64,000 bases of DNA from Thermotomaculum hydrothermale (GTDB lineage Bacteria; Acidobacteriota; Holophagae; Thermotomaculales; Thermotomaculaceae). The notes below the pieces were generated by a model. That model was not told where the DNA came from, did no database searches, and worked only from the letters and a program-made list of their open reading frames with translations. The position numbers and the translations under genes were made by a program. The stretch is from the NCBI RefSeq assembly GCF_016592575.1, contig NZ_AP017470.1, positions 682,001 through 746,000 on the forward strand, given 5' to 3'. Positions 45,661-48,276 of this stretch are shown piece after piece (position 1 is the stretch's first letter; every line of letters begins with the position of its first letter).

Positions 45661-45741
45661 TTTTGTGTCATTGGTTGACAAGTTGTTTAAATCAAATTAA
45701 ACTATTTTTTGCGTGTGCCCATAGCTCAACTGGATAGAGCA
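45661..45741 (+). repeat. Direct repeat, copy 1 (tRNA promoter plus tRNA 5' part)
   Basis: 81 bases nearly identical to 45875-45955 (one clear mismatch, AAATC against AATTC). It covers a TTGACA/TAAACT promoter and the tRNA-Arg 5' end up to the anticodon stem. Offset between copies is 214 bases. Confidence 0.9.
45675..45703 (+). promoter_or_regulatory. Promoter of truncated tRNA copy 1
   Basis: TTGACA at 45675-45680, 17-base spacer, TAAACT at 45698-45703. The tRNA-like 5' end begins 12 bases later, as for a real tRNA promoter. Confidence 0.7.
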
Positions 45742-45779
45742 CCCCGATACAATCGGGGAGGTTGGGGGTTCAAGTCCCT
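45715..45779 (+). pseudogene. tRNA-Arg-like copy lacking the 3' acceptor strand
   Basis: Begins GTGCCCATAGCTC exactly like the intact tRNA-Arg at 45929, but its anticodon arm is CCCCG/CGGGG with loop ATACAAT (would-be anticodon ACA). After the T arm the sequence becomes TTACAAATTGC, so the TGGGCAC acceptor strand, discriminator and CCA are missing. It cannot form a normal acceptor stem. A good promoter precedes it, so it may be transcribed. See the reciprocal copy at 46051. Confidence 0.8.
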
Positions 45780-45874
45780 TACAAATTGCATTTCTGAGAT
45801 TTTTTTTCAGCGATAAAAATTATAAGAAATAAGAGGTGAGTTTAAAATATAATTGCAATCTATTTGTTTAAAGA

Positions 45875-45955
45875 TTTTGTGTCATTGGTTGACAAGTTGT
45901 TTAATTCAAATTAAACTATTTTTTGCGTGTGCCCATAGCTCAACTGGATAGAGCA
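45875..45955 (+). repeat. Direct repeat, copy 2 (promoter plus tRNA-Arg 5' part)
   Basis: Partner of 45661-45741. In this copy the repeat leads into the intact tRNA-Arg gene. The duplication seems recent because promoter spacers are almost unchanged. Confidence 0.9.
45889..45917 (+). promoter_or_regulatory. Promoter of tRNA-Arg(ACG)
   Basis: TTGACA at 45889-45894, 17-base spacer, TAAACT at 45912-45917, with the tRNA 5' end 12 bases later. Confidence 0.75.
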
Positions 45956-46005
45956 TCTGGCTACGAACCAGAAGGTTGGGGGTTCAAGTCCCTCTGGGCA
46001 CACCA
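45929..46005 (+). tRNA. tRNA-Arg (anticodon ACG)
   Basis: 77-base intact cloverleaf: acceptor GTGCCCA/TGGGCAC, D arm GCTCAACTGGATAGAGC, anticodon stem TCTGG/CCAGA with loop CTACGAA (ACG, A34 normally deaminated to inosine by TadA), T arm with GGTTCAAGTCC, discriminator A and encoded CCA. It lies between two truncated relatives and has its own promoter. Confidence 0.95.
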
Positions 46006-46050
46006 TTTGTTTGGTAAGAGGCATTTAGTTCTTTGAAGGTATGAAGTAAA

Positions 46051-46119
46051 AGCTCAACTGGATAGAGCACCCCGATACAATCGGGGAGGTTGGGGGTTCA
46101 AGTCCCTCTGGGCACACCA
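46051..46119 (+). pseudogene. tRNA-Arg-like copy lacking the 5' acceptor strand
   Basis: Starts inside the D arm (AGCTCAACTGG) with no GTGCCCA before it, then is identical for 57 bases to 45723-45779, including the ACA-type anticodon arm. Unlike that copy, its 3' end is complete: TGGGCAC, A and CCA, as in tRNA-Arg. No promoter is seen upstream. Copies 1 and 3 are therefore reciprocal halves of one lost or split tRNA gene. Confidence 0.8.
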
Positions 46120-46150
46120 TTTAAAAAGTTCTTTATATATTAACCATATC

Positions 46151-46315
46151 GGTCAGGTTCCTTTAAGGATTAAAAGGGAATCCCGTGAAAATCGGGAACG
46201 GGCCCGCCGCTGTAACCGGGGACTGAAGGCCATTATGCCACTGTTCCGACGAAGTCGGGATGGGAAGGCGGCTGGAAGGTTGATCCGGGAGTCAGAAGAC
46301 CTGCCTGACTGCAAA
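46151..46315 (+). promoter_or_regulatory. Cobalamin riboswitch
   Basis: Contains the ordered conserved blocks of the AdoCbl-type riboswitch: AAAAGGGAATCCCGTG, AACGGGCCCGCCGCTGTAA, GCCACTG (the B12-box region), ATGGGAAGGC and GAGTCAGAAGACCTGCC. A small variable hairpin TCCGAC-GAA-GTCGGGA lies between GCCACTG and GGGAAGGC. It ends about 80 bases before btuB; a downstream hairpin GCTAA-CGGAGGC-TTAGC may belong to the expression platform. It should switch off the importer gene when cobalamin is plentiful. Confidence 0.95.
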
Positions 46316-46395
46316 TGCTAACGGAGGCTTAGCGGTGATTGTAAATTATCCCGCATAAAATTTAATCCTGAAAAAAAAATAAAAAGGAGGAGTGT

Positions 46396-48276
46396 ATGAA
46401 AAGAGGTTTTCTATCGTTTTTTATTGTTTTTTTTGTTGTTACGGCGTTTGCAGCAGGGAATTATTATGAGATTAAGGAAAGTGTTGTTGTGACAGCCACA
46501 AAGGAGAAGACAAAGAAGAAGGATATTGCAAAAAATGTTAAAGTTGTAACTAAAAAGGAGATTGAAGAAAGCGGTGCGATTACGGCAATTGATGCATTGA
46601 AGAATGTTCCTGGTGTAATTATTGCTTCTAACGGTGGTTATGGCTCTCCTGTCTCTGTTTATTTAAGAGGGGCTTCTCCAAACCATACAATTGTTATGAT
46701 TGACGGTATTAAAATTAATGACCCAATGAACCCTGGAAGGAGCGCTGATTTATCAACAATTCTTGCATCAGATATTGAGAGAATTGAAATTGTTTACGGA
46801 AGTGAAAGTGCCGTTTACGGCTCAGATGCTATGGCTGGTGTTATAAACATAATTACAGTTTCTGGTAAGAGAACCTTGAACGGTTTTTTTGAGGGAGGTT
46901 CAAAGTCAACAACATCTGGGGGGATAAATTTCCAGAATAAACAGGGTAAATTATTTTACTGGATGAAGGGCTCATTTTTTGATACAGACGGAATTTCCGC
47001 AGCAGATGAAAAAATGGGAAACACAGAAAGTGATAGCTATACAAATGCAACAATTAACGGTGGGTTAAAGTATAGTTTTGGAAAAAATGAATTGACTGCT
47101 TCTTTGATTTATATTGATACAGATTCAGACCTTGACAATTTTGGTGGCGAGTTTGGAGATAATCCTTCATATACAGGGGATAGAACAGATTATTACGGAA
47201 AGTTTGAATGGAAGTATAACAATCCTTTCGGTTTTGACGGTTACACAAGGTTTGGGTATTACTATACAAGTATTGAAAGGGATTACTCTAATCCTGATGA
47301 GAATTTTCCCCCTGTTGTAAATTCAAATTATAAGGGGGAATTTAATCGCTTCAATTTACACACATTTTTAAAGCTTTCAGACAAAAATTCAATTTCTTTT
47401 GGATTGGAGACAACAGAAGAGAAGGGGCATTCTTACTATTATTCAGAGTCTTCCTGGGGTGCTTATGAGAGTATCTTCCCTGAAAAGTCTGTTGATACAA
47501 ACAGTGCGTATTTAAATTTAATTTCAAAGTTTAAGTTTTTTACTCTAAATATAGGTGCAAGGTACGATGACCACGATGAATTTGGAAGCAAGGGAACCTT
47601 TAATTTAGGTTTTGTGGTTCCTTTAACAGAAACCCTTGTTTTCAAAGTAAACGGTGGCAACGGCTTTAAAGCACCTTCCCTTTTTCAATTGTACTCTGAT
47701 ATGTATGGAAATAAGGATTTAAAGGCTGAAACATCAGATAATTACGAGGCATTTTTTGAAAAAAGGCTTCTTGAAGGGAAAATGGTTTTTACAATAGGGT
47801 ATTTTTACGACAAGTACAAAGACTTAATTTACTTTGATATGACAACATATCGCTATGCAAACGGAGAGGAGGCTGAAACAAAGGGAATGGAAACAACATT
47901 TAAGTATGCGGGAAAGAGTTTTTCCTGGTTTTTTGGATTTACAAATATCTCTTATTCGTCTGATAATCAAGCATATTTTTACAACAGGCCTGAAGCAACA
48001 ATGAATTTTGGGATAACTTACAAATACAATCAATGGAATTGTAATTTAACTGCACTTTACTATGATGACAGAACATCCTTTGATTTCTTAAATTTTAAAG
48101 AGGTAAAACTTGACAGTTTCACTGTTGTTGACGCAAGGATTGGTTACAATTTAAACAAAAAACTTGAGATTTATCTAAAAGGCCACAATATTTTTGATGA
48201 AGATTACGAGTATGTTTATGGATATGGTACATTGGGGGCTGTGTATTATATTGGTGTAAGGTATAAGGCTTTCTAA
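46396..48276 (+). CDS. btuB: TonB-dependent outer-membrane receptor, cobalamin importer BtuB-type
   Basis: 626 residues. Signal peptide 1-20, TonB box ESVVVTATKE at 28-37, plug domain (about 40-155) with DALKNVPGVII, VYLRGASPNHTIVMIDGIKI and VYGSESAVYGSDAMAGVINI, then a 22-strand-type barrel ending in an aromatic residue (YKAF). The cobalamin riboswitch directly upstream supports B12 as substrate. The length fits BtuB (about 600). AAGGAGGAG precedes the ATG. The import feeds the B12-dependent IcmF at 11.5 kb. Inner-membrane btuCDF genes are not in the window. Confidence 0.93.
   Translation: MKRGFLSFFIVFFVVTAFAAGNYYEIKESVVVTATKEKTKKKDIAKNVKVVTKKEIEESGAITAIDALKNVPGVIIASNGGYGSPVSVYLRGASPNHTIVMIDGIKINDPMNPGRSADLSTILASDIERIEIVYGSESAVYGSDAMAGVINIITVSGKRTLNGFFEGGSKSTTSGGINFQNKQGKLFYWMKGSFFDTDGISAADEKMGNTESDSYTNATINGGLKYSFGKNELTASLIYIDTDSDLDNFGGEFGDNPSYTGDRTDYYGKFEWKYNNPFGFDGYTRFGYYYTSIERDYSNPDENFPPVVNSNYKGEFNRFNLHTFLKLSDKNSISFGLETTEEKGHSYYYSESSWGAYESIFPEKSVDTNSAYLNLISKFKFFTLNIGARYDDHDEFGSKGTFNLGFVVPLTETLVFKVNGGNGFKAPSLFQLYSDMYGNKDLKAETSDNYEAFFEKRLLEGKMVFTIGYFYDKYKDLIYFDMTTYRYANGEEAETKGMETTFKYAGKSFSWFFGFTNISYSSDNQAYFYNRPEATMNFGITYKYNQWNCNLTALYYDDRTSFDFLNFKEVKLDSFTVVDARIGYNLNKKLEIYLKGHNIFDEDYEYVYGYGTLGAVYYIGVRYKAF

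Follow-up and report, generated by a model that had tools for sequence, protein, structure and literature searches.

A tRNA-Arg(ACG) gene flanked by truncated, palindrome-bearing copies in Thermotomaculum hydrothermale: possible ORF-less members of a tRNA-dwelling selfish element family

How a complete, essential tRNA gene comes to lie between two broken copies of itself, both altered in the same arm, is the question raised by a short array in the chromosome of Thermotomaculum hydrothermale. The array belongs to the window analyzed here, a 64,000-nucleotide stretch of contig NZ_AP017470.1 (positions 682,001 to 746,000). Our reading, held with moderate confidence, is that the truncated copies are ORF-less members, either non-autonomous or decayed, of a family of small selfish elements dwelling in tRNA genes, for which we infer mobility and DNA cleavage.

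Anatomy of the array at tRNA-Arg(ACG)

The intact gene (45929-46005, CCA encoded) was called by ARAGORN and scored at 69.7 bits by Rfam; it lies on the forward strand, as do both of its neighbors. Copy 1 (45715-45779), of the upstream type, retains the 5' acceptor strand, the D arm, and the T arm and lacks the 3' acceptor strand. Copy 3 (46051-46119), of the downstream type, retains the D arm, the T arm, the 3' acceptor strand, and CCA and lacks the 5' acceptor strand. The anticodon arm of each is replaced by the palindrome CCCCGATACAATCGGGG, located on the forward strand at 45742-45758 in copy 1 and at 46070-46086 in copy 3. Copy 1 matches the intact gene at 27/27 positions in the 5' acceptor strand and D arm and at 21/21 in the T arm, and copy 3 matches it at 19/19 positions in the D arm and at 33/33 in the T arm, 3' acceptor strand, and CCA; the anticodon arms match at 8/17 positions each. 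ARAGORN returned a tRNA call for the middle gene alone (Arg ACG), and the flanking copies reached 34-35 bits in Rfam versus 69.7 for the intact gene. The matches per arm and both programs thus bear out the first-pass annotation, which had described an intact tRNA-Arg between reciprocally truncated copies, and alignment confirmed the 57 identical bases it had noticed in copies 1 and 3 (45723-45779 and 46051-46107).

A normal anticodon arm consists of a 5-bp stem and a 7-nt loop. The altered arm had initially been read in this form, as CCCCG and CGGGG around ATACAAT, and named an ACA-type anticodon arm. It is a perfect palindrome, CCCCGAT and ATCGGGG around ACA, predicted to fold as a 7-bp stem with a 3-nt loop. 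Nor does the suggestion survive that the two copies, if joined, would yield a tRNA with an ACA anticodon for the Cys codon UGU, because a functional tRNA-Cys(ACA) finds no support in view of the loop geometry, the acceptor stem that is broken in both copies, and the tRNA-Cys(GCA) of the genome. Hairpins of the form CCCGA..TCGGG occur four times in the window versus 0.05 expected by chance, two of them in copies 1 and 3 and two elsewhere at terminator-like positions.

Copy 1 is preceded on the forward strand (45675-45703) by promoter-like TTGACA (45675-45680) and TAAACT (45698-45703) motifs separated by a 17-nt spacer. These motifs are real, as first described, but they are not peculiar to copy 1; they duplicate the promoter-like TTGACA/TAAACT that we read ahead of the intact tRNA-Arg on the same strand (45889-45917), the region 45661-45714 being identical to 45875-45928 at 53/54 positions. 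Copy 1 is part of a long tandem duplication that has partly diverged (193 nt, 81%). This duplication speaks for another explanation, that plain tandem tRNA duplications left spare copies decaying by deletion, with hairpins or palindromic repeats acquired later without harm, no element acting at this locus, and nuclease genes at other loci merely settling in such duplications; weighed with the evidence from other loci given below, we consider this explanation rather unlikely.

Over the 60 bp that precede the copy-1 promoter, identity to the corresponding stretch is 67%, against 98-100% for the promoter and tRNA body. Given this disparity, the tRNA copies of the window may be old, a point against the element reading, and the likeness of promoter and tRNA body in copy 1 would have been kept either by gene conversion or by selection. 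Identity maintained beside a diverged flank leaves room for selection at the RNA level, under which the truncated copies would work as tRNA-like RNAs, be it as decoys, regulators, or processing aids. The promoter of copy 1 and its D and T arms, 99-100% identical to those of the intact gene, favor this possibility, yet gene conversion could account for the same identity, and we regard RNA-level function as improbable in light of the comparison within the genus below.

No ORF of at least 60 aa lies between the tRNA copies of the window, hence no integrase gene is present there. Integrating elements commonly leave partial tRNA copies behind (PMC9897764), and the array might accordingly be what remains of a prophage or integrative element whose attachment site was the tRNA gene. 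This origin is very improbable: the copies lie a few hundred bases apart, neither an integrase nor att-flanked cargo was found between them, the truncated copies stand on both sides of the intact gene, and they carry a palindrome. A phage similarity search, which returned normal tRNA-Arg genes only, likewise led us to reject a phage origin. Directly 3' of copy 3 lie a cobalamin riboswitch (129.8 bits, 46138-46322) and then a TonB-dependent receptor-like ORF (46396-48276).

Filled and empty sites in the genus and further loci in the genome

Comparison of the locus in relatives, designated here G001 to G004, revealed both occupied and unoccupied sites. The Arg array is present at the same locus in a second species (G002), with an identical palindrome sequence, while G001, G003, and G004 carry a lone tRNA-Arg ahead of the cobalamin riboswitch, that is, an empty site. 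The 3' flank behind copy 3 (46120-46164, forward strand) is identical at 36/45 positions to the single-copy locus of G001 and to that of G003 (30/45 for G004), whereas the 3' flank of the intact copy matches the G001/G003 locus at 17-22/45, which places copy 3 at the native 3' junction. The early proposal, in which unequal recombination or an insertion duplicated the tRNA, therefore had the direction right, with the native flank behind copy 3 and empty sites in three congeners, but it missed the palindrome, the recurrence of the arrangement, and the nuclease described below. G001 also has two downstream copies at tRNA-Thr.

The same comparison bears on the functional-RNA explanation from both sides. 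The unchanged palindrome in G002 would be expected under selection on the RNA; however, the T arm of the G002 upstream copy has decayed, three congeners have no copies at tRNA-Arg, and many unrelated tRNAs elsewhere have copies with differing palindromes. Mis-assembly had also been suggested, and repeats of this kind are indeed hard to assemble, both G002 contigs stopping at or near the array. Against it stand the array at the same locus in G002, the empty site in three congeners, the assembly of the window genome as one contig, and the position of copy 3 at its native junction together with the recurrence of the anatomy, with spacers of differing sequence and length, both at a second tRNA locus here and in further species. 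We therefore give almost no credence to an assembly artefact.

That second locus emerged from an Rfam tRNA scan of the 2.3-Mb genome, in which low-scoring copies were found at tRNA-Arg and, three in number, around tRNA-Thr(CGT) (C1:1133129-1133634). One upstream copy at tRNA-Thr(CGT) has a promoter and the 5' end, two tandem downstream copies have the 3' end, and in all three TCCCGATTTTAATCGGGA replaces the anticodon arm. A weaker truncated copy accompanies tRNA-Thr(TGT), on the downstream side only. Searching the flanks with 34 distinct tRNAs recovered copies at Arg(ACG) and Thr(CGT) only, the Thr(TGT) copy falling below the cut-off. At both Arg(ACG) and Thr(CGT), truncated copies with a palindromic arm keep the 5' end when upstream, or the 3' end when downstream, of an intact cognate gene. 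Sites of the form CCCGATN1-8ATCGGG number six in the 2.3-Mb genome, all within truncated tRNA copies.

As a general dispersed repeat, the palindrome was rejected for the window genome, while some palindromes of some Bacteroidota do behave in this way. The palindrome TCCCCAAAGCTTTGGGGA is present in 85 copies in one Saprospiraceae genome (G423, the genome of locus L134) and absent from four others tested; in G423 it also occurs within the T loops of truncated tRNA copies. In two of the congeners (G001 and G003), CCCGAT..ATCGGG stems are also used in peripheral hairpins of RNase P RNA (L079, L088) and of cobalamin riboswitches (L070, L071). The presence of a dispersed palindrome in T loops and the use of the CCCGAT..ATCGGG stem in other structured RNAs of the congeners count for the explanation by decaying duplications, as does the lack of an ORF in the arrays of the window. 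Under that explanation, however, there is no reason why three tRNA genes of a single genome should share a palindrome stem that recurs in several phyla, or why the palindrome should be absent from the rest of the window genome.

Truncated copies and GIY-YIG nucleases across phyla

A genome-wide pattern scan returned at least 36 loci with truncated tRNA copies, besides unrelated matches and four genuine tRNA-Thr genes. Among the matches listed, these loci belong mostly to Bacteroidota, with others in Acidobacteriota (L168), Sedimentisphaerales (L104), and further groups; of 396 Acidobacteriota genomes sampled, the window genome and one further genome matched, the latter by the pattern alone. 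Reciprocal truncation is a general rule. Among the matches listed, upstream copies kept the 5' strand in 23/24 cases and lost the 3' strand in 18/24, and downstream copies kept the 3' strand in 33/40 and lost the 5' strand in 34/40 (p=7e-11 and 1e-5 for the rule), tandem copies within both sets of counts not being independent. Viral contigs gave 68 pattern matches, and a truncated tRNA copy together with a GIY-YIG ORF was found in two of them only (L278, L284); a search with one tRNA-associated nuclease found no plasmid match. Near-complete truncated copies at L330, L114, L105, and L132 received ARAGORN tRNA calls with a wrong or undetermined anticodon (e.g., Pro, Ser), and such copies may pollute tRNA annotation.

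On reading these loci, we often found small GIY-YIG ORFs between the truncated and the intact copies. By profile search, a GIY-YIG ORF was detected at most 1 kb away in 15/36 truncated-copy loci (among the matches listed; ~40%) versus 0/38 controls (p=3e-6), counts obtained after hand sorting, in which the four true tRNA-Thr genes, together with an unrelated locus of Mesorhizobium, were set aside from the truncated-copy set and L104, a true element, was recognized among the controls. The ORFs at truncated-copy loci are always on the tRNA strand, a strong same-strand link that decaying duplications would not predict. At more than half of the loci with truncated copies, the stretch examined contains no ORF. 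ORF-less and ORF-bearing copies stand side by side at single loci (L104, L105, L134, L158, and L339), which suggests that the ORF-less form is a normal state of the family. Within Acidobacteriota, L168 is a complete downstream-type element at tRNA-Ile(GAT).

Starting from the protein side in 22 genomes, which had been reached through palindrome-bearing loci and so form a sample that is not fully independent, most of the small GIY-YIG ORFs that we read adjoin a tRNA gene or a truncated copy. The tRNAs concerned are those for Ala, Arg, Asn, Asp, Gly, Lys, Pro, Ser, Thr, and Val and a CAT tRNA, and the ORFs at tRNA genes mostly stop inside tRNA-derived sequence, for example at a TAG followed by AGC or by CTCAG. 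The encoded proteins match the Pfam GIY-YIG family (PF01541). In the relatives, and in these only, the nuclease has a GIY-YIG catalytic domain with the conserved motif residues, as a single domain of about 80-100 aa whose invariant residues include Y5, Y16, G18, R26, H30, E62, and K66. The nearest solved structures by sequence are UPF0213 proteins (1zg2, 1ywl), followed by SLX1 chains.

In the clearly readable tRNA-linked cases, every truncated copy has a palindrome, mostly in the anticodon arm and at times in the D or T loop, and its sequence is variable. The presence of a palindrome in each truncated copy is based on reading the sequences by eye; a longest-perfect-stem score, by which some copies were misread, failed to tell truncated copies from intact ones (median 6.5 versus 6.0 bp), because stems are present in intact tRNAs as well. 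The palindrome loops resemble the cognate anticodon loop above expectation (p=0.0004, or 0.007 without Lys, kinship being ignored in both), which suggests that at least some palindromes are remodelled native arms rather than inserted repeats.

The tRNA arrays of the window genome have no GIY-YIG ORF, and we therefore call their members ORF-less copies rather than a complete element. The single small GIY-YIG ORF of this genome lies within a 23S rRNA gene, and its location there, together with ORF-less arrays, counts against the element reading. This ORF (L206, G000:C1:1259679-1259885) is flanked by the inverted repeats CCCAGCACCTATTTTAAT and ATTAAAATAGGTGCTGGG; it resembles an ORF-bearing intervening sequence, and its site looks like helix 25. 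In Bacteroidota and related groups, small GIY-YIG ORFs also occur away from tRNA genes (L225, L226, L227, L231, L233, and L349), several of them among dispersed repeats, perhaps reflecting a wider partnership between such nucleases and repeats.

Proposed element and comparison with known systems

We tentatively propose that a GIY-YIG nuclease of one domain, similar to SLX1 and UPF0213, and a tRNA gene piece marked by a palindrome form a new class of chromosomal selfish unit, which would spread across isotypes and phyla through breaks at hairpin-forming sites and repair copying, always leaving one intact tRNA, with the window holding its ORF-less form. The full element would be a same-strand unit, the ORF being joined to a second, partial copy of the host tRNA gene that has a GC-rich palindrome in place of one arm, mostly that of the anticodon. 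The order would be 5'-end piece, ORF (if any), and intact tRNA in the upstream type, and intact tRNA, ORF (if any), and 3'-end piece in the downstream type, with one complete tRNA always kept or restored. The nuclease would make its break either at the palindrome or within the tRNA region, and recombinational repair against a neighboring copy would then insert the unit or amplify it in tandem, much as breakage and recombinational copying have been demonstrated for phage SegB. The palindrome would mark the dead copy, either as a private site of the nuclease or because it abolishes the native site and makes recombination with the intact gene less frequent; its sequence and position vary among elements, so that any fixed recognition site is hypothetical. 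What the data show directly is the anatomy of the copies, their recurrence, the reciprocal rule, the association with the nuclease, and the filled and empty loci in the genus.

Should the proposal hold, the chromosomes of several bacterial phyla harbor a compact tRNA parasite that is unnamed in the open literature searched, and puzzling tRNA pseudogenes and wrong tRNA calls would find an explanation, such as the broken Ala-type copy called tRNA-Pro at L330. It would also provide a cellular counterpart to the tRNA-amplifying phage enzyme SegB and allow direct tests of where UPF0213-like GIY-YIG proteins cut.

GIY-YIG selfish elements near tRNA genes are a known kind, and the tRNA/palindrome unit is apparently undescribed, no published account of a tRNA-associated GIY-YIG/palindrome element having been found in the open literature searched. 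The closest parallel is SegB of T-even phages, a free-standing GIY-YIG homing endonuclease encoded beside tRNA genes, on which the tandem amplification of a tRNA-Tyr segment depends (PMC13096335). Both systems combine a small GIY-YIG gene beside tRNA genes with tandem amplification of tRNA units and involve no intron or intein (PMC13096335), and the proposed element may be comparable to SegB in effect. Unlike SegB, it is chromosomal, its nuclease has just one domain (about 80-100 aa), its unit includes a truncated, palindrome-bearing tRNA copy, its cutting and homing are putative, and the window copies are without the ORF. Integration of prophages or ICEs leaves one complete and one partial tRNA copy (PMC9897764), whereas the window array has no integrase or cargo, has truncated copies on both sides, and has the anticodon arm replaced.

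REP/RAYT systems likewise tie short palindromes to a small nuclease gene; their enzyme is a Y1 (HUH) transposase rather than a GIY-YIG nuclease, and the palindrome here is not dispersed, since the 2.3-Mb genome has six sites, each of them within a truncated tRNA copy. UPF0213 and SLX1, the closest in solved structure to the tRNA-associated nuclease, are known as stand-alone or SLX4-bound proteins. To our knowledge, neither has been described as part of a tRNA-associated repeated unit. The intervening sequences of 23S rRNA find a likeness in the GIY-YIG ORF that the window genome carries between inverted repeats in its 23S rRNA gene; they differ in that the RNA gene is interrupted and no part of it is duplicated, whereas the proposed element carries a duplicated piece of its host tRNA.
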